Origin: a virus
Virus record (IMG/VR): IMGVR_UViG_3300037247_000720
Location: 1-25,870 of that record
DNA: 25,870 nucleotides
Reading direction: 5' to 3' (one strand)
Positions within the stretch are counted from its first letter, which is position 1, and each line of letters begins with the position of its first letter. A program made the translations under genes and the position numbers. Under the pieces are notes generated by a model. It searched no databases, had not been told where the DNA came from, and was given only the letters and a program-made list of their open reading frames with translations. Positions 2,789 to 21,586 of the stretch are shown here, piece by piece.

Positions 2789-3013
2789 ATGAGCGAAGAG
2801 GAGACGAATATCGAGAAAGCGCGGGAGTTGCTGCACATCGCCGCAACGGCGGTGCAGATCCACAAGCTGGCCTCGGAGGCCCAGCCTCTCCCAGCGTCGA
2901 ACGTAGCGGAACTGGCCCGTGGCGTTGCGTGGGGGGCGTTGAAGAGGGCGCGCGAGCTGCTGGACGAGGAGGAGCCGGATGGCGCACGGGCCGACGCAGT
3001 TCCAGGGGAGTGA
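2789..3013 (+). CDS. Small helical hypothetical protein (74 aa)
   Basis: The ATG at 2789 is preceded by AGAGGAG with a spacing of 7. An upstream in-frame ATG at 2744 lacks a ribosome site, so I reject it. The product, beginning MSEEETNIEKARELLHIA, is acidic and reads as two helices: residues about 7-30 and about 38-62 (AELARGVAWGALKRARELLD). I do not recognise it. It is the first gene of the rightward operon running to 4465. Its last 35 bases overlap the start of the next gene, whose ribosome site (GAGGAGGAG) lies inside its Glu-rich codons, so translation of the two is likely coupled. Confidence 0.7.
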   Translation: MSEEETNIEKARELLHIAATAVQIHKLASEAQPLPASNVAELARGVAWGALKRARELLDEEEPDGARADAVPGE

Positions 3014-3335
3014 GCGCTTCCATGAGATCCTCCGCGAACTGGGCGAATTACACGATCTGAAGAGCCGCGACTACGGGACGGAGGAGGAGCCGTTCGCCAA
3101 TATCCAGGGCAGCCGGGAGTGGGGAGTGCTGCCTTGGGTCGGCGCCATGGTGCGGGCGACCGATAAGCTGCGGCGTTTGCAGAAGTTCGCCCGTGAGGGC
3201 AAGCTGGCCAATGAGGCGGTGGAGGACAGCTTTCGGGACCTGGCGGTGTACGCCGTTATCGCCCTCGTCCTCTATGAAGAGACCCTGTTGAAAAGGCCCG
3301 CTGATGCTGGTATGCTGGGGGCGGAGAAGGACTGA
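2979..3335 (+). CDS. DUF1599/MazG-like all-alpha protein, possible nucleotide-related (118 aa)
   Basis: The 118-residue protein has FHEILRELGELHDLKSRDYG, then EEPFANIQGSREWGVLPWVGAMVRATDKLRRLQKF, and ends with NEAVEDSFRDLAVYAVIALVLYEE. The combination of a K-S-x-DYG motif, an F-x-N-I motif, a GA-x-VR-x-x-DK-x-x-RL helix and a final ED-x-x-x-D-x-AVY-x-x-IAL helix recalls the phage DUF1599 (nucleotide modification-associated) group and MazG-type all-alpha NTP pyrophosphohydrolases, where Glu/Asp residues on helices bind magnesium. The assignment is from memory of those patterns. A role in nucleotide pool handling or modified-base synthesis would be inference. The ATG at 2979 has GAGGAG at a spacing of about 6. 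Confidence 0.75.
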   Translation: MAHGPTQFQGSERFHEILRELGELHDLKSRDYGTEEEPFANIQGSREWGVLPWVGAMVRATDKLRRLQKFAREGKLANEAVEDSFRDLAVYAVIALVLYEETLLKRPADAGMLGAEKD

Positions 3336-3337
3336 AG

Positions 3338-3895
3338 ATGCCGATAGGTGGGTTGCGGCCACGGACGATGCGGGAGGCGCTGAGGAAGCGCCAGCGCGAG
3401 GTGACGGCGCTCCAGCGGCGGATCGTCACCCGCGAGCTCACCCCCATGCAGAAGAAGGTCGCGGGGAAGATTCCGCAGGCTGAGGTGGTCACCCGTATTG
3501 GGTTCGGGAAGACGAAGGCGGGGGAGGTGAAGCGGGTGGCGGGCCGCGCGACCTTCGGCGAGGCGAACCTGCCTGTGCCCGTCCGCCTGGCCCAGTTCGC
3601 GCTGAGGGCGGAGCCGAAGCGGACGATCAAGCTCACGCTGCGGGCCAAGGGAGGCGAGGCCCCGTTGCGCCACGAGCTGGCCCATCAGGTGCTGAACCTT
3701 CAGGACATCTCCTCGAAAGAACACCATCCCATCATCAAGAAGGCGGTCGCCTCGAAGAAGAAGGGCGTGAGCTTCCGGCTGCTGGAGCCGGCCCGCACCG
3801 CCATCCGTCGCGGTGCCACCACGCAGGCGGCCGAGCCCAGGTTCCGCCAGGCGCAGTTTCGCGAGTTGAGACGGCGAGCGAGGCGAAGGAGATAG
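3338..3895 (+). CDS. Basic protein with HExxH zinc-metalloprotease motif, copy 1 (185 aa)
   Basis: This 185-residue, strongly basic protein contains RHELAHQ, with H112-E113-x-x-H116 forming an HExxH zinc-binding signature. A run KEHH about 12-14 residues later could give a third ligand. The N-terminal 100 residues are Arg/Lys-rich with helix-like (MREALRKRQREVTALQRRI) and strand-like (RTIKLTLRAKGG) parts. The C-terminus is a pure basic tail (RELRRRARRRR). I recognise no named peptidase family. HExxH alone can occur by chance, but the surrounding residues (hydrophobic after HExxH, likely helical) and the repeat of the motif in the next gene argue for a real zincin-like site. The start lies 2 bases after the previous stop. 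Substrate and role are unknown; head-protein processing or injected cargo are speculation. Confidence 0.75.
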   Translation: MPIGGLRPRTMREALRKRQREVTALQRRIVTRELTPMQKKVAGKIPQAEVVTRIGFGKTKAGEVKRVAGRATFGEANLPVPVRLAQFALRAEPKRTIKLTLRAKGGEAPLRHELAHQVLNLQDISSKEHHPIIKKAVASKKKGVSFRLLEPARTAIRRGATTQAAEPRFRQAQFRELRRRARRRR

Positions 3896-4465
3896 ATGGC
3901 GGACGGTGAGAGACGCCGCCAACTTGCCCGCCGCCAGTCCGCGCGCCTGGCGACGGCGGCTACGAGGAAGGCGCTGAGCGAGCTGACCCCACCGTCGCGG
4001 GAGCGGGCGCGGCAGCGTGGGCTGACCACCGCCCGGCCTGTCCTGAAAACGGTGGCCGACGTACTGGCTCAGGCTACCCAACCCGCCATCACCTGGTCCG
4101 TGTCCCCGGAGGGGAAGCTCGAAACTCCCGACATTAGAGGTACCGCTCGCCATGAGGTGGCTCACTTTTCGCTGCCGGGGACGAAGCGCGGTCGTTTTTT
4201 CGGACAACACTTTGCGATGCGAGCTGCTGGCGCCCAAGGGGAACTCCTTTCGGTTCCCAGTGGGGTAGCATTGCGGCAGGCCGAGGCGGCGGCGCGGCTG
4301 CCGTCCGGCCGGCGGATCGCCCGCGCCGTGAAGTTCCGGCTGGCTCGAACCCGCCGTCCGCAGAGCGAGGTCTCCTCGACCGCCAGGACACCCACCCAAC
4401 AGAAACGTGCCAGGGAGCGGGTGGGGAGGCTGCGCCGGCGTCTCCGTGGCCGCACAGGCTTCTAG
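3896..4465 (+). CDS. Basic protein with HExxH zinc-metalloprotease motif, copy 2 (189 aa)
   Basis: The 189-residue product begins directly after the stop of its neighbour, with AAGGAGAT as ribosome site. It carries TARHEVAHFSL, giving H86-E87-x-x-H90, and a further His at about +15 (FGQHFAM). Like copy 1 it has a basic N-terminal half, a segment with a hydrophobic strand (PAITWSVSPEGKLE) before the motif and an Arg-rich C-terminal tail (RERVGRLRRRLRGRTGF). The two proteins align plausibly around RHE-x-AH and in overall layout, so they are probably diverged paralogs. I know no family with two adjacent minimal HExxH proteins before a terminase gene. The stop codon TAG is shared, as CTAG, with the stop of the convergent gene at 4462-4728. 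Confidence 0.75.
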   Translation: MADGERRRQLARRQSARLATAATRKALSELTPPSRERARQRGLTTARPVLKTVADVLAQATQPAITWSVSPEGKLETPDIRGTARHEVAHFSLPGTKRGRFFGQHFAMRAAGAQGELLSVPSGVALRQAEAAARLPSGRRIARAVKFRLARTRRPQSEVSSTARTPTQQKRARERVGRLRRRLRGRTGF

Positions 4466-4728
4466 GCGGGGGGCTTCTTCCTTTTTCGTTTTACCGGTGC
4501 CCGTAGCAAGGTGGGCTCCAAGATGGGTGCTGCCGCCAGTAGTTCCTTGACTAGTTCGTACTGCGCCCGCGCGTCCAGGCGGGCTTTCTTGTCTGCCAGT
4601 TCTTCACGGCTCCTGCGGAGAGTCTTCTCCCTACGCATCAGCAGCCGGTAGAGCGGCCGCCAGCGCTTCCGCTCCCCTTCGACGGCCTTGGTCTGGAACT
4701 CTTCGAGTAGGTCGTGGATGTCGGTCAC
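4462..4728 (-). CDS. Small basic coiled-coil protein (88 aa), convergent
   Basis: I take the GTG at 4728 as start because GGAGGGGG lies just upstream on the minus strand. The frame extends further back to an ATG at 4758, but that start has no ribosome site and the region would overlap the rightward promoter at 4752-4780. The 88-residue product (VTDIHDLLEEFQTKAVEGER) is almost entirely helical and charged, with a heptad-like stretch RREKTLRRSREELADKKARLDARAQYELVKEL and a Lys/Arg tail ending KRKRKKPPA. It is probably a coiled-coil, perhaps DNA-binding. It is the only leftward gene within the structural arm and ends in a four-base CTAG overlap with the second HExxH gene. No good promoter of its own is obvious. 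Confidence 0.6.
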   Translation of the reverse strand: MTDIHDLLEEFQTKAVEGERKRWRPLYRLLMRREKTLRRSREELADKKARLDARAQYELVKELLAAAPILEPTLLRAPVKRKRKKPPA

Positions 4729-4751
4729 TGTTCCCCCTCCCCACGCTGCGC

Positions 4752-4780
4752 TTGACACGCCTTCCCGGCAAGCGTAAGAT
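4752..4780 (+). promoter_or_regulatory. Strong sigma70-type promoter for the pre-terminase and head genes
   Basis: TTGACA (4752-4757), a 17-base spacer and TAAGAT (4775-4780) make a near-consensus promoter. Transcription should start near 4787, just before the Shine-Dalgarno GGAAAGGAGG (4791-4800) and the ATG at 4808. No strong terminator is visible between here and the capsid genes, so this may drive a transcript of more than 14 kb. Confidence 0.85.
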
Positions 4781-5310: not shown

Positions 5311-5547
5311 ATGGCCGGCGACGTCCTCACCGCCGGTGAGGTGCCGGAGAAGAACAAGCGGCGTAGCGTGGCCGCCAGGGGCGCAGCGAAGAGAGCCCGC
5401 CGGAGCCGGAAGAAAGTGATCTCCCAAGCGAAAGCCTGCACCATCATGCGAGAAGGTGCGGTTCACGGAAAGGCGCTGACAGACAAGCAGAGGGGATTCA
5501 TGGCCGCACGGTGCGAAGGACGGCCCGCGAAGAGGAGGGCCGCATAA
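5311..5547 (+). CDS. Small basic protein with a KxLTxKQ-type motif (78 aa)
   Basis: The 78-residue product is highly basic (EKNKRRSVAARGAAKRARRS and a RPAKRRAA tail). The C-terminal third reads VHGKALTDKQRGFMAARCEG. The G-K-x-LT-x-KQ-x-x-F-x-A pattern recurs, as I recall, in short phage proteins of unknown role, and its LT-x-KQ-x-x-F core also resembles the first helix of small terminase subunits. The protein is too short to be a full small terminase subunit of the usual type, though a minimal DNA-recognition protein beside TerL is possible. It starts 3 bases after the 55-residue gene and its stop overlaps the next start as TAATG. Confidence 0.75.
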   Translation: MAGDVLTAGEVPEKNKRRSVAARGAAKRARRSRKKVISQAKACTIMREGAVHGKALTDKQRGFMAARCEGRPAKRRAA

Positions 5548-5759
5548 TGGCTCGGAAATTCATAGCGGAGGCGATCCGGCGACCGGGTGCTCTCCGCAAG
5601 AAGGCGGGACTCAAACCGGGTGGTGATGGCAAGATCCCCGAGGAGAAGCTCGCCAGCTTGGAGCGCGCTGCGAAGAGACGGGGCGACACCCGCACCCTGA
5701 GGCAGATCGCTCTGGCCCGCACGCTGAGGAAGATGCGGGGGAAGAAGAAGGCGGCGTAA
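5547..5759 (+). CDS. Small basic phage protein of the RPGAL type (70 aa)
   Basis: The ATG at 5547 overlaps the previous TAA (TAATG) and has GAGGAGGG upstream, so I prefer it to a longer frame. The product reads MARKFIAEAIRRPGALRKKA, then GGDGKIPEEKLASLERAAKR, and ends with a helix RTLRQIALARTLRKMRGKKK. I recall short phage proteins with this exact order: FI-x-x-AI-x-x-PGAL-x-K, then K-IP-x-x-KL, then R-x-x-LA-x-TLRK. They are often near structural genes and have no assigned function. The length is typical. It may bind DNA or be packaged in the virion. It continues the tightly coupled basic cluster, and its own stop overlaps the next ATG (TAATG). Confidence 0.8.
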   Translation: MARKFIAEAIRRPGALRKKAGLKPGGDGKIPEEKLASLERAAKRRGDTRTLRQIALARTLRKMRGKKKAA

Positions 5760-6013
5760 TGTCCCTCTTTCCCAACGACGCCGGGCAGGCTGTCCGCCGC
5801 ACCCGCCGGCCGAGAGGTCGGGAGAGCGTCCCCGCCGGGTTCTTTGGTTCGGCCAGGCAGCAACCCGTCCGTAGGGTCAGGCGACGCCGTTCGCAGCAAC
5901 CAATACCTCCGATCGCCGCCCCGTCCATCACCGGCCAACTGCGGGGGGTGCCGACAGACGACATGCGCCGACGGCTGGCCGACATGCGCCGGCGATTGAC
6001 GCAGGGACTCTAG
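5759..6013 (+). CDS. Small Arg-rich protein (84 aa)
   Basis: The ATG at 5759 overlaps the preceding TAA. The 84 residues include about 20 Arg, with patches RRTRRPRGR and RRVRRRRSQQ, a Pro/Ile-rich linker (PIPPIAAPSITG) and a final amphipathic helix DDMRRRLADMRRRLTQGL, in which DMRRRL is directly repeated as ADMRRRL. It is probably largely disordered apart from that helix. I know no family. Arg-rich unstructured proteins upstream of a terminase could bind packaged DNA or condense it, but this is inference. The C-terminal RRRL motif resembles tails of neighbouring proteins. Confidence 0.7.
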   Translation: MSLFPNDAGQAVRRTRRPRGRESVPAGFFGSARQQPVRRVRRRRSQQPIPPIAAPSITGQLRGVPTDDMRRRLADMRRRLTQGL

Positions 6014-6025
6014 GAGGAGATCGCC

Positions 6026-6571
6026 ATGTCGAATGGGGGTTTGACAGCCGCGAACGTCATTGATCTGGGTGAGTTTGGTGGTCCTCTGGGTGCCCCGAGG
6101 GGTACGGCTGGTGGCCGTGGGATTATCCGGCTTGGTGGTGCCCGTCCGCCAGGAGGCCGTGTTCCTCCCGGCGGACGGGGGGCTGTGCGGGGTAGGTTGG
6201 CGGGGCGAGTACGCGCTGCTCTGGGGAAGGCCCCACGCCCGACGAAGAGAGGGGTGGCTGTTGGCGCTGGTGCGGTTGGCGCAGTGTCTCTGGGTGCGCT
6301 GACGTTGGGCCGTGCTGGGCCGGGCATTGCCCGACCGCCGACCTTGAAGGCGTTGGTCCGTGCGTTTAAGCCCCGTAGTGTTTCTGTGACCCAACGGGCC
6401 GCATTTCGGGGGGAGACTCCCGGGCAGTTGGCTGGACGTAGGATCCGGGAGACCGCTGCTGCCGTGAGCGTGGTTCAACAGAAGCAAGGTGTTGGTCGAG
6501 AAGAGGCGGGGCGCATCCTTCAAAGGATCGCGCGTGTCAAGGAAGCCCGCAAGCGTCTGCGATTGGGGTAG
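6026..6571 (+). CDS. Gly/Arg-rich protein with a possible membrane segment (181 aa)
   Basis: TAGGAGGAGATCGCC precedes the ATG, an excellent ribosome site. Residues about 18-75 are Gly/Arg/Pro-rich (GGPLGAPRGTAGGRG, RPPGGRVPPGGRG). A 20-residue hydrophobic stretch follows at about 76-97 (GVAVGAGAVGAVSLGALTL), a plausible transmembrane or glycine-zipper helix. The C-terminal third is helical and basic (GREEAGRILQRIARVKEAR, ending RKRLRLG). A glycine-zipper helix in a phage structural-region protein can mean a role in membrane passage of DNA during infection, but nothing here proves it. The wobble positions are more GT-rich than in the neighbours. Its last 38 bases overlap the terminase frame. 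Confidence 0.7.
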   Translation: MSNGGLTAANVIDLGEFGGPLGAPRGTAGGRGIIRLGGARPPGGRVPPGGRGAVRGRLAGRVRAALGKAPRPTKRGVAVGAGAVGAVSLGALTLGRAGPGIARPPTLKALVRAFKPRSVSVTQRAAFRGETPGQLAGRRIRETAAAVSVVQQKQGVGREEAGRILQRIARVKEARKRLRLG

Positions 6572-8348
6572 TCTTTTGGTACAGCCCCCTGCCAAGCTGC
6601 CGGCGGAGCGCGCCGATCGGGAACTGGATCCCGAGTCGCCCGAGCACGCCCTTCTCTTCGATCCCGCCAAGACCGGTGAGTGGATCGAATCGCTGCTGAC
6701 GATCCCCAATGAGCGTGGGGTAGTCGTCGACTTCAACCTCTACCCCCAGCAGCGCCTCATGCTCGCCGAGCACGCAGGACGTGACGTCACCATCAAGGGA
6801 CGGCAGACGAGGGCCTCCTCTCTCATCATCGCCCGCAACCTTCGCCGCCTGACGACCAGTTTCGGGCTCAAGGCGTTGATCATTACGCAGGACGACGCCA
6901 TGACTGCGCTCTTCCGTGACCGGATCAGCCATCATCTTCAGGATCTCCGCAATCACGGTCTTGACTACACGGTTCACCCCGACAACATGAATGAGATGGT
7001 GATTGGGAAGGAAATGCAGAACCACATCATCTTTGCTAGCGCGGAGGAGAGGGTCACGGGGCGTTCCTACAGCGCACAGATTGTACATGCCTCTGAGACC
7101 AGTCACTGGAAACCGGAGAACGCTGGCGCTTTGCTCGGCGCGATCATCCCCGCCGTTCCCGGGCCACCGCATGGTTGGTTCGACATGGAGTCGACACCGA
7201 ACGGCGCGGCGGGAGAGTTCTACGACTACTGCATCGACGCCCGTGACGAGACCGATCTGCTCAACCGCTGGCGCCTCCATTTCTACCCGTGGTGGATCGA
7301 GCCCCGCTATCGCACCGGGTTGCTTGGGGAGAAGGACTGCGACCTGCAACTGTCTCCCGGCGAGCTGGAGAACCTCCGTCTGAGTTTCAAGCCCGACCAT
7401 CACGAGCAGACCCTACGGGAGCAGCACGGCCTCACCGTTGACCAGGTTCTCTGGCGCCGCTTCCGCGAGCGCGAGTTGATGAAGACAGGCGTGCCCTTCG
7501 TCCAGGAGTACGTTGAGGACTTCGATAGCGCCTTCACCACTGGACAGGGCAACTTCTTCTCCTCGCCTGATGGCCTCGACCACCTCGCTTACTACAAGAG
7601 CCAGGTCGCCGATCCCGGTTTCCGTCTTGACGGCCTCCCCTACAGAGAGGCCCACATCTCGTTCTACGGCCCCAACCTCAGCATCTGGGAGCGCCCCGAC
7701 CCGGCCCAGCTCTACGTCGGCTACATGGACTGTGCCGAGGGCGGCGTCGGCCGGGAGAACGACTACACGGCGTTGGTCATCCTCAACGCCTTCACCCGCC
7801 ACCACGCTGCGACGCTGAGGCTCAGGGCCGCCCCCTCGGAGTGCGGCGCGATGGCGTGTGCCGTCGCCCAGTATTACAACAACGCCCTGCTCGGTGGAGA
7901 GCGGGGGAACTACGGTTCGGCGGCGTTGGAGCGTTGCCGCGACCTGCGCTACCCGAACATCTACTACCACATGGACTACGACAGGCCACGCCAGCAGCCG
8001 GAGCCCTGGATCTTCCCAACCCAGGCGCGCCGCGATGAGATACTGCGTGTCTACCGTGAGGCGATCTTCGAGCGCACCTTCATGACCCGCGACGACAACC
8101 TCGTCAAGGAGATGGGGAGCTTCTCGTGGGAGAAGGTGCGGGGAGGGCAGATCAAGGCGAGGGCCGCGAAGAGGAAGCACGACGACCTCGTCATCGCCGC
8201 TGCCGGCGCGACCTTCCTCTCGCAGCGCTTCGCCCGTTACCGGATGGAGCATGAGCAGCGCCAGCCGGAGATGATCGTGACGGGGCAGCACGGCGTCGTC
8301 CTCAGCCGTGGCCCTGTTGAAGACATGCCGCATGGGTGGTTGCGATGA
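6534..8348 (+). CDS. terL: Terminase large subunit (ATPase-nuclease), 604 aa
   Basis: This is the DNA-packaging motor: its ATPase drives DNA into the prohead through the portal and its nuclease cuts concatemers. I take GTG 6534 as start (AAAGGA 6 bases upstream); a GTG at 6489 is in frame but poorly supported. Visible motifs with this numbering: a variant Walker A (KGRQTRASS, from K88), the Walker-B-like IVHASETSHW with E188, the coupling motif ESTPNGAAGEF from E219, the nuclease Asp D399 in YVGYMDCAEGG followed by RENDYTALV, and the terminal nuclease motif KHDDLVIAAA (H549-D550-D551). Order and length fit a full TerL. The Walker A lacks the central GK and has Arg where many relatives have Gly. 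The gene overlaps its downstream neighbour by ATGA. Confidence 0.93.
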   Translation: MSRKPASVCDWGSLLVQPPAKLPAERADRELDPESPEHALLFDPAKTGEWIESLLTIPNERGVVVDFNLYPQQRLMLAEHAGRDVTIKGRQTRASSLIIARNLRRLTTSFGLKALIITQDDAMTALFRDRISHHLQDLRNHGLDYTVHPDNMNEMVIGKEMQNHIIFASAEERVTGRSYSAQIVHASETSHWKPENAGALLGAIIPAVPGPPHGWFDMESTPNGAAGEFYDYCIDARDETDLLNRWRLHFYPWWIEPRYRTGLLGEKDCDLQLSPGELENLRLSFKPDHHEQTLREQHGLTVDQVLWRRFRERELMKTGVPFVQEYVEDFDSAFTTGQGNFFSSPDGLDHLAYYKSQVADPGFRLDGLPYREAHISFYGPNLSIWERPDPAQLYVGYMDCAEGGVGRENDYTALVILNAFTRHHAATLRLRAAPSECGAMACAVAQYYNNALLGGERGNYGSAALERCRDLRYPNIYYHMDYDRPRQQPEPWIFPTQARRDEILRVYREAIFERTFMTRDDNLVKEMGSFSWEKVRGGQIKARAAKRKHDDLVIAAAGATFLSQRFARYRMEHEQRQPEMIVTGQHGVVLSRGPVEDMPHGWLR

Positions 8349-13243: not shown

Positions 13244-16200
13244 ATGAGTTTTTTCCGCCGGGCCTTCGAGAAGGCCACCGATGTCGGCGGGACGGCGGTT
13301 GGGCAGATCTCCTCGCTGCGCCTCGATCCCACACGTCTGCGGGGCGCGGGCCGGGGTCTCCGCAACCTTGTCACCAACATCCCCTATATCTTCAACCTCA
13401 CCGACCGTGACCCCTTCGCGCCGGAGGGCCTCGACCTTTCTGAGATCCGCACTGACGCGCAGGCACGCGACGCCATTGACTCAATCATCGGCATCGACGA
13501 CGTGGCGCGGAAGAAGGCGGAGGCGATCTCTTACTACCGGGATCAGGGAGGCTTTACACGTAGGATTGAATTGCTGCTTCCTCCTGGGGCTGCTCCCGTC
13601 GAGCCGTCTCTCCAAGGGTTGCCCTTCTCGCTGGACAGCGATGCTCGGCTGGCGGTTGGGGACTTCCAATTCGATCCGACCTTCGTGCTCGATCAGCAAC
13701 TGGCCAAGCAGCTTGAGGATCCGGCCGTCTTCATGCAGTACATGCGGATGACCGAGCCTCAGACACTGGTAGCTAATCTCGTCGAGCGCGACCTGAACAA
13801 GATGGGTCAGGACGAGAGCGTCCTCCGCAACATCACGGGCAACCCGTTTGGCACTGCCTGGGATGCGTTTAGCGGCCTCTTCACTGGTGAGACCGTTGAG
13901 CGCATCGAGGAGGTGATCGGCCAGGGTTACTACCAGAACGCCATCCCCGACCCCTACCTCCGGCAGGTCTTCGCTACGCGGCTGTGGGACTTCAGCCTCT
14001 TCAACTTTTGGGACTGGGAGCGTCAGAACGAGCGCGGCGCGATGCAGGAGGTCGAGCGCATCATGGCGGACGGCCTCACTGGAGAGGCGGCTGCCGACGA
14101 ACTGGAGCGCTACTTCCAGGAGAACCCTCTAGGTGCCGCTGGTTTCACAGCCAACATGCTGGGCTGGGTCGCTATGGATCCGCTCAACTTCGTCCCTGTC
14201 GGCTGGGTGGCCAAGCCGGTGACGATTCCCCTGAAGGCGGTTACGAAGGGGGCGCCGATCAGCCGCTTCCTCCGCCTCTTCACGCCCACCGGCCGGCGCG
14301 TTGCCTTCTCGAAGAGCGGCATCACGGGGCTCTTCAAGCTGGAGAGCTACAAGGCGCTGACGCGAATGCCGGAGGCGTCCTACGCGGCTCAGAGGATAAC
14401 GGAGCCTGTGAAGGGCATCTCCCGCCTTCTCTTCGAGAAGCCCGCCAACCTATTCGCTGACTCGGTGGCGGTGACGCTGGAGCGCCGCCTGAAGCCTATC
14501 AAAGCGGCTCTCGCGCGCGAGCCTGCGCGCATCTCCGAGATCGGCGAGACCTTCAAAACCGGTAAGCCGACTCGCTGGGTTGCTGACAACCTGCCGGGCC
14601 TGCGAGAGACCAACGACGACATGCTCGACTTTGGTGCTCGCATTGCCGAGAAGCAGTCGGACGTCTTCGACGACGCCCTGAAGGAGATGACCTCGACGAT
14701 CGACGACTGGACGGAGGCTGGTTTCTACCGAGCCGAGGCTACGGTCGACGATGTCCAGCAGGCGATGGTGCGGGGGGAGACGCTGATCGCCCGTGCCGAC
14801 CTGGAGCAGGCGATCCCGGAGTATGTCGTCGCCAAGGCCCGCTCCTTTGCTGAGACGACGCAGCGGGACCTCTGGAACGCGACCAAGTTCGGCCGCTTCC
14901 TCTCGCGGTGGTACTTCCCGATGACTGGTATGATCAAAGGGGTGACGGCGGCTGTTACCATCAACAACCCGGGTTTCGTCTGGCTCAACGTGGTGAGCAA
15001 CGCGATCCGCCTGTCGTGGCACTCCGCCTTCCATCCGGCTGAGGGCTTCAAGGCGATGGCCTATGCATTCTCGATGGAGTCTAGCGTGGTGCTCAAGGGC
15101 GGGGGGCGCGCCCCCCGGATCTGGAACCGCATGGCTAGGGTGGTGGGCATTGATCCGATCGACATCGAGCGCTTTGCCACCCGAATCACCGGCTCCCACG
15201 ATCTCCTCAGCCGGTCGCTCTTCGAGGCGGGGCAGGAGGGCTTCGAGGACAGCCTGAAGCTCATTCAGAAGGCCCGCCTGCAACCGGCGAAGGAGATCGG
15301 TCAGCGCAGGCGCTTCTGGGACCCTGTCATGGCACCGGTACACATCGCCGGGCGGGTGGACAAGATTTTCCGCCGTGCTACCTTCTACTCCCAGCTCCAG
15401 CGGCAGTACCACATGGCCCTCGCCCCCGGTGGCAAGATCCGGGGCCTGTTCGCCCCCGTGGGGGAGGCGATGGAAACGGCCGGTCGGGGCGCCGACGAGA
15501 TCCGCCGTGCTGAGAACGCCTTCGCCGACGAGATCGGCCTGTATCTCTTTGGGAATAGGGAGCTGCCCGAGGGGGTCTCCGACCTGGGCGAGGTCATAGT
15601 TCCGGCCCTCCAGGGGCGGCTCGACCGCATGGAGGCGGGCGTGGCATCCGGTGTCCTCTCGCCGCACGACTACGGGCGCCGGTTCGCCAGGGAGGTGCTC
15701 AAGCACGAGGGGCAGGAGGCCGAGCTTTTTGCCACCCACGACCTGGCGCCGATCATGGACTTCATCAGTTCCGACGTGATGCCTGTCCTGGACGACGCGC
15801 AGAAAGTCGGAACGGGGGAGGCGATGACCAAGGCGATGAAGCGGATCGACCGGATGTTGGAGACCTACGCCCTGGACTACGACGTCCCCTCCGACATCGT
15901 CCGCCAGATGGCCCGTCAGCCGTCGGTGATGCGTGGCCCGACGACCTATGCCGGAGCGCTCCGCGTCACCGACCAGGCTATCCGCAGGGAACTTGCCGAC
16001 AACGTCCAGCTCCTCGACCGCTTCATCAGCATCGTCAAGCCCGGCTGGTCGCCGAAGGAGCAGACCTCCTGGTACGCTTCGCGGCAGTGGGCACGCGTCG
16101 CCGAGAGCGCCACCACCGAGAACATCAAGCGGCTGGACGCGATCCGTGCCATTTACAACGACCTGGCAAGGGAGGGCGTCGAGCGGGTCAGCCGAGACAC

Positions 16201-19200
16201 AATCATTCCGCCTCGGCTGCTGGAGGCCCTACCGGAGGATATACGGCCGGTGACCAAGCCGGTCACCCTACCGCCCGCTCGTGCTGCTCCTGTGGAAGTA
16301 CCCGCAGAAGTGGCCCGATTAGAAGCGGATGTGGCTGCGCGCCAGGCAGATGTAAAGCGGTTGCGGTTACTTGCTGCGGGTGAAGAGTCGGGTACTGGGC
16401 CGATACATCAAGCTCTCCAGGATGCCCAGGCGCGGGCCAAGGGTGTCGGAATGCGCCTCAGTGCGGCTCGCAAGGCAGCCGGCATCTCTCCGGCTGAAGC
16501 TGCTCTCGCCCCCGCCCCCGTCGTTCCTGGTAAGAAGGTGAAGGCGGCAAACGTCGGCGATCTCTGGGACGGCTACCTCACCCGCCGCGACGCATCGTTC
16601 GACGAGATGTTCTCCTTTGTCGACGACACCGTCCGTAAGTCCTCTGAGGCCCACGCCGACATCGTCGCTAGGATCGGCGAGCACGTGAAGAAGACCTTTG
16701 CCGAACACCGGCGGATCATCAGCGAGGCCCTGGAGGTTGGAGATGACGACGCCTGGCGTGTGGCCGGCGAGAAGGTGCGCCAGCTCTACGAGCAGAGCGC
16801 GCCGCGCAAGGCGAAGATCGCCGGCCTGGGCGTGAACGACGTCCCTGCGGCCCAACAGTTCATGGATCCCAGCGGCGTCCTCGCCAGCGAGATCCACGAG
16901 TTCAAGGGCTTCTTCATGCGGAGCCTTCGGGACGACATCCCGAAGCTCCTGCGGGGCGACCTAGCCGTGGAGAGCGAGGCCGTGCGCGCCATGCGCGCTA
17001 CTATCGGCGACGTGCAGCGCGGCTGGGCGGAGGTGCGCGACATCATGATCGGCAACTCCCGCGCCGCGACCGACTTCGTCATGCTCAACTACCTCGACCA
17101 GCGGGGCATCGACCGCATCGCCCAATCAGTCTTCCCCTTCGAGTTCTGGCCGACGCGGGACGCGATGCACTGGGCGATCCGTGGCGCCCGTGCCCCAGGC
17201 GCGTTCGGGGCGATCACGATCGCCATGTTCGAGTCCCAGAAGTTCTCCGAGCAGTACGGCTACCCACAGCGTCTCCAGTACCGCATCCCGATCCCTCTCC
17301 CCGGCCTGAGCGAGTTCCTGAACAAGATGCCGGGGGTGGGCTCGCTCCTTGAGGGTGGGGACTTCGCGCCGGTCTACTTCATCGACCCCCTACGTTTTGT
17401 GTTTCCCTACACGTTCCTACGCGATCAGTTCGATGACGAGGCCCGGCGCAACACACTCCCAGGCCGCGTGCTTGACTTCTTCCAGAACAGCACTCCACTC
17501 AATGTCGGGCCGTTCCAGAAGTTCGCCTTCCGACATTCGGGGATGCTCGACAAGGATGCTTGGAGGAGCACGGTCTTGTCCGGTGGTCCCTTTGGTCTCC
17601 CGATGACGCCGTTGGCCCGCGCCACCGCCCGCTTCGTCTTCACCGGCGACACCGACGCCATCCCCGCTGATGAGCAACGGCTCTACGTGGAGAAGGGCCA
17701 TTTCTCTCCTGGTTGGCTGCGCGACCTCCTGGGCATGGAGGATGACCAATGGGCTGTCTGGCGCGCCGACCGTGCGATGGCCTCCCTGGTGACGACGGGC
17801 GAGTTGATCCCCGGCGCTTCCAAGGAGGAGCAGTTGGAGAAAGCCTGGATTGCCCTTGACACCCGCGCCGGCCCGGAGTGGAAGAAGGCGGTCAAGGCAT
17901 CGCAGGCGGAGACCAACCTCCGGCGCCTCACCTACTGGATCGGCTTCCCCTTCGGTGACGTTGTCGGTGTCAACGAGGGGGAGAGGATCTGGTTCGGCCT
18001 CAAGGCCATCTACGGCGAGTATTCCCGTCGGGGCAAGCTCGACGAGTTCTTCGAGAAGTACCCCGAGTTCGAGCTGCGTACCGCCACCGTGCGCGGCCTC
18101 TCCGACCCCGAGGAGCGCGAGAAGGCCGTTGACACCGAACTCTACTGGCAGTCGATTGACCAGTACGTCGAGAAGCCGTTCGAGAAGGCCGTCATGGACC
18201 TGGAGAACGAGCGCAGCCGGTTGCAGGAACTCACCCAGAGCCAGCCCGTGCGCGACCAGCTCGCCGTCCTCCGGGACGAGTTGCGGGCGATCCGCGACGA
18301 GCAGGAGAAGCGGCGGGAGGAACTAGATCGCGCCTTCCCCTTCCGGGCGAAAGAGCTGTCGATCAACCGCAATCCGCGTGGCCGCGCGCTTGCCGGGATC
18401 CGCAACGAGTGGTTCGACATCGAGCGCGGTGAGGGGGAGGACTTCGACGCCTTCCTCTTCCGCCGCGAGGAGTTCCTTTCCCAGTTCCCGACGGTCACCG
18501 ACACCATCGCCTACGAGGATATGTGGCAGCAGATCGAGACGCAGTTCATGCAGACCCGCATCGTCGCATCCCGTCAGCGCGACCTCGCCTTCCAGAAGGA
18601 CGACTTCGACGAGGCTCAGCGGATCGCCGATGCGCGCGACACCGCCCTGGAGGAGTTGCATGAGCAGGCCCGCCAGGTGATCGCCCGCAGGGACGTTGAA
18701 CGCTTCCTCGCTACCTTTGCCTGGCCGAAGACGGAGGCGCAGCAGGAGTTCGAGACCGCCGATTCGCTCAAGGACCTCTGGTTCTCCTTGACCAGTTCGG
18801 GCTCGCCCTTCACCCGCAGCGAGCGCGGCGCGATCAGCGCCTACTTCCGCAGTATGCCGGTCATCCAGAAATACTTCCCCGTCGAAGCGCTCGACCTCGC
18901 CGACCTCTCGCTGGAGCAGCGCTTCGCCCTCATGCGCCGCAAGGACTTCTGGAGCACCTACTTCTCCATCCGGGACAACAGGACGCAGGTCGACTACGCC
19001 CGCATGATGAAGCCGGAGCTGGACGAAGCCAACCGTCTGCTTGGCCTGCCCCCGCTGGAGATCATCGACATCGAGCCCTACCCAGTCGAGTCCAGCGGCG
19101 ACCCGCTCTTCAGCCACATCCAGATGATGGCCGCCATCAACCGGCGGGAGGACATCGACGAGGACGAGCAGCTTACCGAGGAGGAGCGCGAGGAGTTGGA

Positions 19201-19309
19201 GAGGCTCATGGCAGAGGTCGGTCTGGCCGAGGCCGATACCGCTCTGACCGACGCCGACGTCTCCCGTTTCCTGCGCCCTTATTCGGTCGAAGATACCGAG
19301 AGCCCTTGA
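13244..19309 (+). CDS. Giant virion-associated protein in the MuF position (2,021 aa)
   Basis: One uninterrupted frame of 2,022 codons, nearly a quarter of the window. I can see: an N-terminal region with IPYIFNLTDRDPFAPEGLDL; AGFTANMLGWVAMDPLNFVP near 300; hydrophobic GVTAAVTINNPGFVWLNVVS near 565-585; RRRFWDPVMAPVHIAGRVD and FRRATFYSQLQRQYHMAL near 690-725; an Ala/Pro linker at about 1003-1105; VFPFEFWPTRDAMHWAIRG near 1296-1315; and charged coiled-coil-like stretches near 1640-1700 and 1750-1820. The FRRATFY, NPGF-x-x-x-N and FPFEFWPTR patterns resemble parts of other very large phage virion proteins, probably internal or ejected, but I see no catalytic motif. It lies between portal and scaffold, where MuF proteins normally are. 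A compositional shift marks the linker. Confidence 0.8.
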   Translation: MSFFRRAFEKATDVGGTAVGQISSLRLDPTRLRGAGRGLRNLVTNIPYIFNLTDRDPFAPEGLDLSEIRTDAQARDAIDSIIGIDDVARKKAEAISYYRDQGGFTRRIELLLPPGAAPVEPSLQGLPFSLDSDARLAVGDFQFDPTFVLDQQLAKQLEDPAVFMQYMRMTEPQTLVANLVERDLNKMGQDESVLRNITGNPFGTAWDAFSGLFTGETVERIEEVIGQGYYQNAIPDPYLRQVFATRLWDFSLFNFWDWERQNERGAMQEVERIMADGLTGEAAADELERYFQENPLGAAGFTANMLGWVAMDPLNFVPVGWVAKPVTIPLKAVTKGAPISRFLRLFTPTGRRVAFSKSGITGLFKLESYKALTRMPEASYAAQRITEPVKGISRLLFEKPANLFADSVAVTLERRLKPIKAALAREPARISEIGETFKTGKPTRWVADNLPGLRETNDDMLDFGARIAEKQSDVFDDALKEMTSTIDDWTEAGFYRAEATVDDVQQAMVRGETLIARADLEQAIPEYVVAKARSFAETTQRDLWNATKFGRFLSRWYFPMTGMIKGVTAAVTINNPGFVWLNVVSNAIRLSWHSAFHPAEGFKAMAYAFSMESSVVLKGGGRAPRIWNRMARVVGIDPIDIERFATRITGSHDLLSRSLFEAGQEGFEDSLKLIQKARLQPAKEIGQRRRFWDPVMAPVHIAGRVDKIFRRATFYSQLQRQYHMALAPGGKIRGLFAPVGEAMETAGRGADEIRRAENAFADEIGLYLFGNRELPEGVSDLGEVIVPALQGRLDRMEAGVASGVLSPHDYGRRFAREVLKHEGQEAELFATHDLAPIMDFISSDVMPVLDDAQKVGTGEAMTKAMKRIDRMLETYALDYDVPSDIVRQMARQPSVMRGPTTYAGALRVTDQAIRRELADNVQLLDRFISIVKPGWSPKEQTSWYASRQWARVAESATTENIKRLDAIRAIYNDLAREGVERVSRDTIIPPRLLEALPEDIRPVTKPVTLPPARAAPVEVPAEVARLEADVAARQADVKRLRLLAAGEESGTGPIHQALQDAQARAKGVGMRLSAARKAAGISPAEAALAPAPVVPGKKVKAANVGDLWDGYLTRRDASFDEMFSFVDDTVRKSSEAHADIVARIGEHVKKTFAEHRRIISEALEVGDDDAWRVAGEKVRQLYEQSAPRKAKIAGLGVNDVPAAQQFMDPSGVLASEIHEFKGFFMRSLRDDIPKLLRGDLAVESEAVRAMRATIGDVQRGWAEVRDIMIGNSRAATDFVMLNYLDQRGIDRIAQSVFPFEFWPTRDAMHWAIRGARAPGAFGAITIAMFESQKFSEQYGYPQRLQYRIPIPLPGLSEFLNKMPGVGSLLEGGDFAPVYFIDPLRFVFPYTFLRDQFDDEARRNTLPGRVLDFFQNSTPLNVGPFQKFAFRHSGMLDKDAWRSTVLSGGPFGLPMTPLARATARFVFTGDTDAIPADEQRLYVEKGHFSPGWLRDLLGMEDDQWAVWRADRAMASLVTTGELIPGASKEEQLEKAWIALDTRAGPEWKKAVKASQAETNLRRLTYWIGFPFGDVVGVNEGERIWFGLKAIYGEYSRRGKLDEFFEKYPEFELRTATVRGLSDPEEREKAVDTELYWQSIDQYVEKPFEKAVMDLENERSRLQELTQSQPVRDQLAVLRDELRAIRDEQEKRREELDRAFPFRAKELSINRNPRGRALAGIRNEWFDIERGEGEDFDAFLFRREEFLSQFPTVTDTIAYEDMWQQIETQFMQTRIVASRQRDLAFQKDDFDEAQRIADARDTALEELHEQARQVIARRDVERFLATFAWPKTEAQQEFETADSLKDLWFSLTSSGSPFTRSERGAISAYFRSMPVIQKYFPVEALDLADLSLEQRFALMRRKDFWSTYFSIRDNRTQVDYARMMKPELDEANRLLGLPPLEIIDIEPYPVESSGDPLFSHIQMMAAINRREDIDEDEQLTEEEREELERLMAEVGLAEADTALTDADVSRFLRPYSVEDTESP

Positions 19310-20368: not shown

Positions 20369-21586
20369 ATGGCTGGTACTACTACCACGCCGCGTGTCGC
20401 TGGAATACCGGACGCAGGCTTTCCATCGGAGATCGACGCGAGCGTCAAGATCCGCTGGGTGGACGACCTGTTGGTGAACATGAGCGAGCGCTCCGCCGAC
20501 CTGCTGAAGTATCTCGGCGGCCCGTCTCAGTTCGCGTTCAACAACACCAAGGTCGAGTGGGTAGAGGACGACCCGTGGAACCGTCGGCCGTCGCTGGGGG
20601 CAACCCCGCTGTCCAACGCCGCCGACACGTCCCTCTCCCTCGCCGCTGACACGAACCACCGGTACCCGGTCGGCACCATCCTCAAGAACCTCAATGGGGC
20701 GGACTCCGCTGGCGAGTACGTCCGCGTGATCGGTCACGGTTCGGACACCCTCATCGTCGAGCGCGACCTCATTGGCGACATCAGTGAGGGAGCCTGGGCG
20801 ACGGCCGACGAGGTCATCGTCTCAGGCTTTGCGATGAACGAGAACGACAACTGGACCGCCCGGCCCACGCCGATCTTCAACCTGCCGTACAACTACGCGC
20901 AGGTGCAGCACGTCGCGGTCGACGTTACCTATCGGCGCCAGGAGACTGCGCTCTACGGGCTCCGTGGCACAGACCTCGACAAGCTCGCGGCCGATGCCAC
21001 CGCAGAGCAGTTTGTGGCGATGGAGGACGCCGCCCTTCACGGTGCCCGCTATGCGGGTGCGTCCGCCACCAAACCCGCCATGTACGGTGGGCTCGTCTAC
21101 TACATCACTGCCGCCAACGGCGCGCAGGTTACGGACTTGAGCGGTGCCGCCTTGACTCGCAAGGACATCGACGACAAGCTCCAGGATCTGTTCTACGAGG
21201 TTGGCGCGGAGAAGATGGCGTTGACGGTCCTCGCCAGTGCGTGGGGCAAGCGGAAGATCACCTCATTCTTCAGCGCCGCCGAGCGGCTCGGTTCCGGTGC
21301 CCGTGAGGCCGGGGTGGCCATCGACCGGGTCCTGACCGACTTCGGCACCCTGGACATCCTGCTCCACACGGCGCTCGGAAAGGATGAGCTGTACTTCATC
21401 CGCCGGGAGCAGAACACCATCGGGAACTACGGCCAGCGCGGGAAGCCGCACCTGGAGGAGGCGGTCGCCGTCGTCTCCAGCAACACTGGCCCCTTCACCC
21501 GCCGGATCTTCTACGCCGACCTGAGCATGATGTGCAAGGGTGTCCAGGGCGAAGGTAGGCTCCATAACTTCAGTATCACCGCATAA
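20369..21586 (+). CDS. Major capsid protein, HK97-fold, SU10-like (405 aa)
   Basis: This is the shell-forming protein of the head. It follows the scaffold, has a near-perfect AGGAGGT ribosome site and is the expected size (about 400 aa). The N-terminal arm is followed by VDDLLVNMSERSADLLKYLG and FAFNNTKVEWVEDDPWNRRP, then a beta-rich insertion (YVRVIGHGSDTLIVERDLIG), a helix with QETALYGLRGTDLDKLAADATA (spine-helix-like), AEKMALTVLASAWGKRKITS, and a C-terminal axial part with DELYFIRREQNTIGNYGQRG and IFYADLSMMCKGVQGEGRLH. The order and the W-x-x-D, L-G/R-x-E and C-terminal GEGRLHNF features match my memory of the SU10-type capsid family (DUF5309). No N-terminal delta domain is obvious, consistent with a separate scaffold. 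Confidence 0.88.
   Translation: MAGTTTTPRVAGIPDAGFPSEIDASVKIRWVDDLLVNMSERSADLLKYLGGPSQFAFNNTKVEWVEDDPWNRRPSLGATPLSNAADTSLSLAADTNHRYPVGTILKNLNGADSAGEYVRVIGHGSDTLIVERDLIGDISEGAWATADEVIVSGFAMNENDNWTARPTPIFNLPYNYAQVQHVAVDVTYRRQETALYGLRGTDLDKLAADATAEQFVAMEDAALHGARYAGASATKPAMYGGLVYYITAANGAQVTDLSGAALTRKDIDDKLQDLFYEVGAEKMALTVLASAWGKRKITSFFSAAERLGSGAREAGVAIDRVLTDFGTLDILLHTALGKDELYFIRREQNTIGNYGQRGKPHLEEAVAVVSSNTGPFTRRIFYADLSMMCKGVQGEGRLHNFSITA

Follow-up and report, generated by a model that had tools for sequence, protein, structure and literature searches.

The window analysed here is the whole 25,870 nt of the viral record IMGVR_UViG_3300037247_000720 (IMG/VR). An inspection of the letters alone (the sequence-only reading) had pointed to two adjoining genes upstream of the terminase gene, each coding for a basic protein with an HExxH motif and an Arg-rich tail. 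This description held. HELAH was found at residues 112-116 of the first protein (A), immediately after R111, and HEVAH at residues 86-90 of the second (B), after R85. The TAG stop codon of A (3893-3895) directly abuts the ATG of B (3896), which is preceded by a good ribosome binding site (AAGGAG). Both proteins have an Arg-rich C-terminal tail and a calculated pI of 12.0, and the pair lies about 2 kb upstream of the terminase gene, with several small ORFs in between. The features of the locus are as follows (L003 and L051 refer to the two related phages described below):

3338..3895, + strand: gene A, 185 aa, pI 12; homologue L003:6745-7293 (58% identity), distant homologue L051:431-1051
3671..3685, + strand: HELAH of A, residues 112-116, identical in L003 and HEIGH in L051; H112 and H116 are the predicted zinc ligands and E113 the predicted catalytic residue
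3722..3724, + strand: H129 of A, at +17 from H112 and predicted to be the third zinc ligand; conserved in the A homologues of both related phages (A' and A'')
3896..4465, + strand: gene B, 189 aa, pI 12; second HExxH protein, positional counterpart of L003:7293-7820
4151..4165, + strand: HEVAH of B, residues 86-90
4208..4210, + strand: H105 of B, at +19 and predicted to be the third zinc ligand; B has no other His outside HEVAH
4397..4462, + strand: basic C-terminal tail of B (about QKRARERVGRLRRRLRGRTGF), resembling the tails of L051:69-431 and L051:431-1051
6489..8348, + strand: terminase large subunit, late-operon context
20369..21586, + strand: SU10-type major capsid protein (PF17236, E 1.4e-26)

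Protein A begins with a basic-helix region, followed by a middle region, the HExxH domain and the Arg-rich C-terminal tail. The net charge is +33 for A and +29 for B. The G+C content at the three codon positions of A (0.66/0.50/0.89) is like that of the terminase and portal genes, and A is therefore coding on the + strand; the pattern is weaker in B (0.72/0.63/0.75). A 375-aa antisense ORF (3272-4399) was ruled out as a real gene because its codon-position composition does not fit and it is less conserved. The opposite strand also contains a 98-aa ORF (4462-4758) between B and the gene that follows; it is 72% identical over 86 aa in a relative and may represent a genuine small convergent gene. 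The gene just upstream of A (2979-3335) had a match to phrog_1485 (E 3e-15) and a weak one to DUF1599, a domain associated with nucleotide modification; no counterpart was found in the corresponding region of a relative. Several more small basic ORFs (pI 11.7-12) lie at 5311-6571, between B and the terminase gene; the protein encoded at 6026-6571 shows low conservation (27%), against 70-86% for its neighbours.

The window also encodes an SU10-type adaptor (PF24175, E 6e-7) which, together with the SU10-type capsid protein, indicates a phage with an SU10-type head and adaptor. A Pfam scan recognised no other protease among the late proteins that it covered, and none was recognised in the interval between the portal and major capsid genes. 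A 2021-aa late protein encoded between the portal and scaffold genes (13244-19309) is ~89% identical in a relative; it matched no Pfam or PHROG family and is possibly an ejection protein.

Single-protein scans with A or B gave no match in 2.9 million viral contigs, and direct homology searches using either protein alone found nothing. Relatives were reached by using the terminase and portal as bait and, later, a combined motif alignment. Relative 1 (IMGVR_UViG_3300037247_001358; 69 kb), whose terminase and portal are 84% and 90% identical to those of the window, carries the same pair in the same place: A' (L003:6745-7293) and B' (L003:7293-7820) both contain HExxH, and the stop codon of the former and the start codon of the latter overlap by one base. 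Relative 2 (IMGVR_UViG_3300037247_001561), obtained from the combined alignment (terminase 42% and portal 52% identical), contains A'' (L051:431-1051) and B'' (L051:4483-4947). These lie ~3.4 kb apart, and B'' stops 2 bp short of the terminase gene. B' and B'' share 50% identity across nearly their full length. All six proteins are stand-alone products of 154-206 aa with a pI of 11.6-12.0. The family was found in these three uncultured phages only, being absent from ~20 terminase relatives searched, many of them fragments. A collection of bacterial and archaeal genomes held no relatives of A and none of the portal, and plasmids yielded no match. Weak tblastn matches in phage records were dropped, two of them (H21 and H22) at E-values of 2-8 and a third (H47) as antisense to an annotated gene.

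Among the open frames of at least 60 aa in the window, only A and B contain HExxH; given the composition of each protein, the probability of finding the motif by chance is 0.0054 for A and 0.0016 for B. Since two such genes are also present in each of the two related IMG/VR phages, the motif goes beyond chance. The sequence-only reading had stated that homologues freely losing the His or Glu residues would speak against a protease site; instead, RHExxH was kept in all six proteins, each of which has an extra His after the first motif His, at +17 in the A type, +18 in B' and B'', and +19 in B. Between +6 and +29 there is no other His besides this third one and its immediate neighbour, and A' and B have exactly three His each, all at the motif or third-ligand positions. 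This placement is suggestive of a candidate third zinc ligand, whose coordination is a prediction. An alternative residue, E128, lies beside H129 in A and A' and is missing in A'' (NVHH) and B (GQH). In a six-way alignment, in which the third His is shifted by one or two columns between the types, the only residues strictly kept beyond the start were V51, L101, R111, H112, E113 and H116.

This retention occurs in a protein that changes rapidly. Between the window and relative 1, A showed a dN of 0.32 and a dN/dS of 0.49, with RHELAHQV unchanged; the values were 0.09 and 0.17 for the terminase, and 0.06 and 0.15 for the portal. Given the fast evolution of A, retention of the site is selective. 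This is the pattern expected when a metal site is conserved while the protein around it evolves fast, and it favours a zincin-like site. Two AlphaFold runs produced unreliable models (mean pLDDT 44-45); these place HExxH within a helix and H129 close to where the following helix begins, which is not evidence for the fold.

A profile built from A, A' and A'' matched B' (E 1.5e-5) and B'' (E 4.7e-5), in both cases along the greater part of the protein; conversely, a B'/B'' profile matched A (E 5e-5) and A'' (E 1.6e-3). Identity between A-type and B-type proteins is only about 26-28%. Judged by these profiles, the A-type and B'-type proteins are paralogues. Window B gave no significant score against the family profile (188 of 1000 shuffles of B scored as high). 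Because the profile misses it, its membership of the family rests on its position directly after A, on RHExxH with the third His, and on the shared C-terminal tail. The score of the B tail against that of the L051:69-431 protein was reached by none of 2000 shuffles. The latter protein lacks HExxH; its C-terminal 70 residues are common to the adjacent HExxH protein (L051:431-1051), and this common tail ends in REQMRRLGxRLKxxGVDF, to which the tail of window B is similar. The basic tail may be modular, perhaps a sorting or DNA-binding tag.

Neither A nor B matched any family in Pfam, NCBIfam, PHROG or the PDB sequences, which agrees with the earlier remark that the pair fits no known phage module. 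A weak match to phrog_28322 was seen (E about 0.2); another, to phrog_4257 (E about 0.2), was unconfirmed and found nothing in either phage. No profile connects the A/B family with any known peptidase. The zincin-like MPTase domain of polyvalent phage and plasmid proteins, in which the third ligand is a Glu in a second helix (PMC5512222), resembles the arrangement predicted here in having an HExxH helix followed by a second, ligand-bearing helix, and in its occurrence in late or invasion proteins of phages. It differs in that a conserved His takes the place of that Glu in the A/B family, whose members are stand-alone proteins, and neither Pfam nor NCBIfam gave an MPTase match for them. The zincin fold class is known; the A/B family appears to be undescribed in the libraries searched.

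The best explanation, to which we give about half of our confidence, is that A/B, A'/B' and A''/B'' form a new family of minimal zincin-type metallopeptidases, with two paralogues per phage. They would be narrowly distributed, nucleic-acid-binding mini-zincins encoded alongside other late genes in phages whose capsids are of SU10 type, and are probably active peptidases. Each protein would consist of a basic N-terminal helix, a small strand region and the RHExxH helix, in which both His would bind zinc and the Glu would activate water; a second helix would provide the His at +17 to +19 as third ligand, and the basic tail would tether the enzyme to nucleic acid. The substrates would be proteins lying on phage DNA, candidates being either virion proteins or ejection proteins that are packaged together with the DNA, or host proteins that it meets. 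We infer here zinc binding, proteolysis, nucleic-acid tethering, packaging, expression time and substrate alike; the late-gene location, high charge, paralogy and fast evolution fit nucleic-acid-tethered peptidases acting on proteins that lie on the phage DNA. If active, A and B would represent stand-alone zincins of very small size within the late module of SU10-type-capsid phages, where the late proteins scanned show no recognised protease. Existing as a pair of paralogues, with a site that stays fixed amid fast evolution, they would offer a tractable test of phage protein processing, and also of protease-based attack on host proteins.

Two versions of this explanation can be considered. In the first, which we regard as possible though not likely, A and B would be packaged, DNA-borne proteases that are ejected with the genome and, at an early stage of infection, cleave host proteins of defence or of the nucleoid. 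Pointing in this direction are the very high charge, the fast evolution of A, the rapid divergence of B and the presence of two paralogues, as well as the several ejection proteins contained in SU10 heads (PMC9509320) and the polyvalent proteins that phages and plasmids deploy at invasion, whose most frequent domain is zincin-like (PMC5512222). However, the basic tails would equally suit a cytoplasmic nucleic-acid binder. An accessory or host-facing role is also argued for by the fast evolution and by the absence of the family from the ~20 terminase relatives (many fragmentary). It is a more speculative proposal that a packaged, DNA-tethered mini-zincin pair, ejected with the genome, cuts DNA-bound host proteins under the direction of an exchangeable basic tail; that this C-terminal tail would also be borne by other proteins of the same module, as part of the same joint reading, is put forward just as tentatively.

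In the second version, which seems rather unlikely, A and/or B would be head-maturation proteases cleaving scaffold, ejection or capsid precursors. It is likewise rather doubtful that they stand in for the usual serine-type prohead protease. Phage enzymes of that type are usually encoded between the portal and capsid genes; A and B share with them the late-gene location and a possible role in head maturation, but present a candidate zinc site rather than serine-type catalytic chemistry. The position of the pair upstream of the terminase and portal genes, and a portal-to-major-capsid interval with no recognised protease, are consistent with head maturation, and the failure to recognise another protease in the late proteins scanned leaves room for such a role. 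In addition, zincin domains have been proposed to process packaged phage proteins, P1 DdrB being an example (PMC5512222). Nevertheless, A and B evolve several times faster than the terminase, the portal and the 2021-aa protein, unlike core assembly genes, and are absent from many terminase relatives. Further, the structural paper on SU10 (PMC9509320) contains no word starting with 'protease' or 'cleav'.

An alternative to the mini-zincin explanation, and one we also doubt, is a zinc-stabilised nucleic-acid-binding protein with no peptidase activity, in which HExxH would be structural. The basic tails, the lack of Cys, the failure to match peptidase families and the low-confidence AlphaFold fold are all compatible with this. 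The Glu of HExxH, however, is dispensable for zinc binding, and it was kept in six of six proteins even though the A-type and B-type sequences have diverged to the low identity given above.

The likeness to the SprT/SPRTN proteases (PF10263), which would make A and B DNA-protein crosslink or DNA-dependent proteases, lies in their small size and in HExxH being followed by one more His, whose offset is +16 to +18 in eight SprT proteins measured and +17 to +19 here; in A, HELAH with a His at +17 is as in E. coli SprT. SPRTN associates with DNA, which the basic character of A and B would suit, and phages can carry SprT genes (PMC12363180). Against this, the AGxA strand motif and HxxxW (with W four residues past the third His), both invariant in SprT, are absent here, and the A/B family has no Cys. 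The Pfam SprT profile gave no match to the family, and hhalign reached only 15-42% probability, confined to the HExxH region. Membership of the SprT family, tried because of the matching ligand spacing, was ruled out on these grounds, and a SprT-type activity is improbable. Least credible of all is that HExxH arose by chance in two Arg-rich proteins whose functions are unrelated: known families are unmatched by either protein and the profile score of window B is not significant, but the composition-based probabilities are low for each protein and the motif is present in all four counterparts in the two other phages, so that for A this reading is already contradicted.

Two further observations concern the relatives. 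Another terminase relative encodes an unrelated 137-aa HEYAH protein (L009:1163-1576, − strand), apparently a zincin of another type. In a relative, a 1156-aa ORF (L015:11054-14524) combines matches to uracil DNA glycosylase, 3'-5' exonuclease and family A DNA polymerase; inside its polymerase part, inteins and LAGLIDADG were also matched, though weakly.
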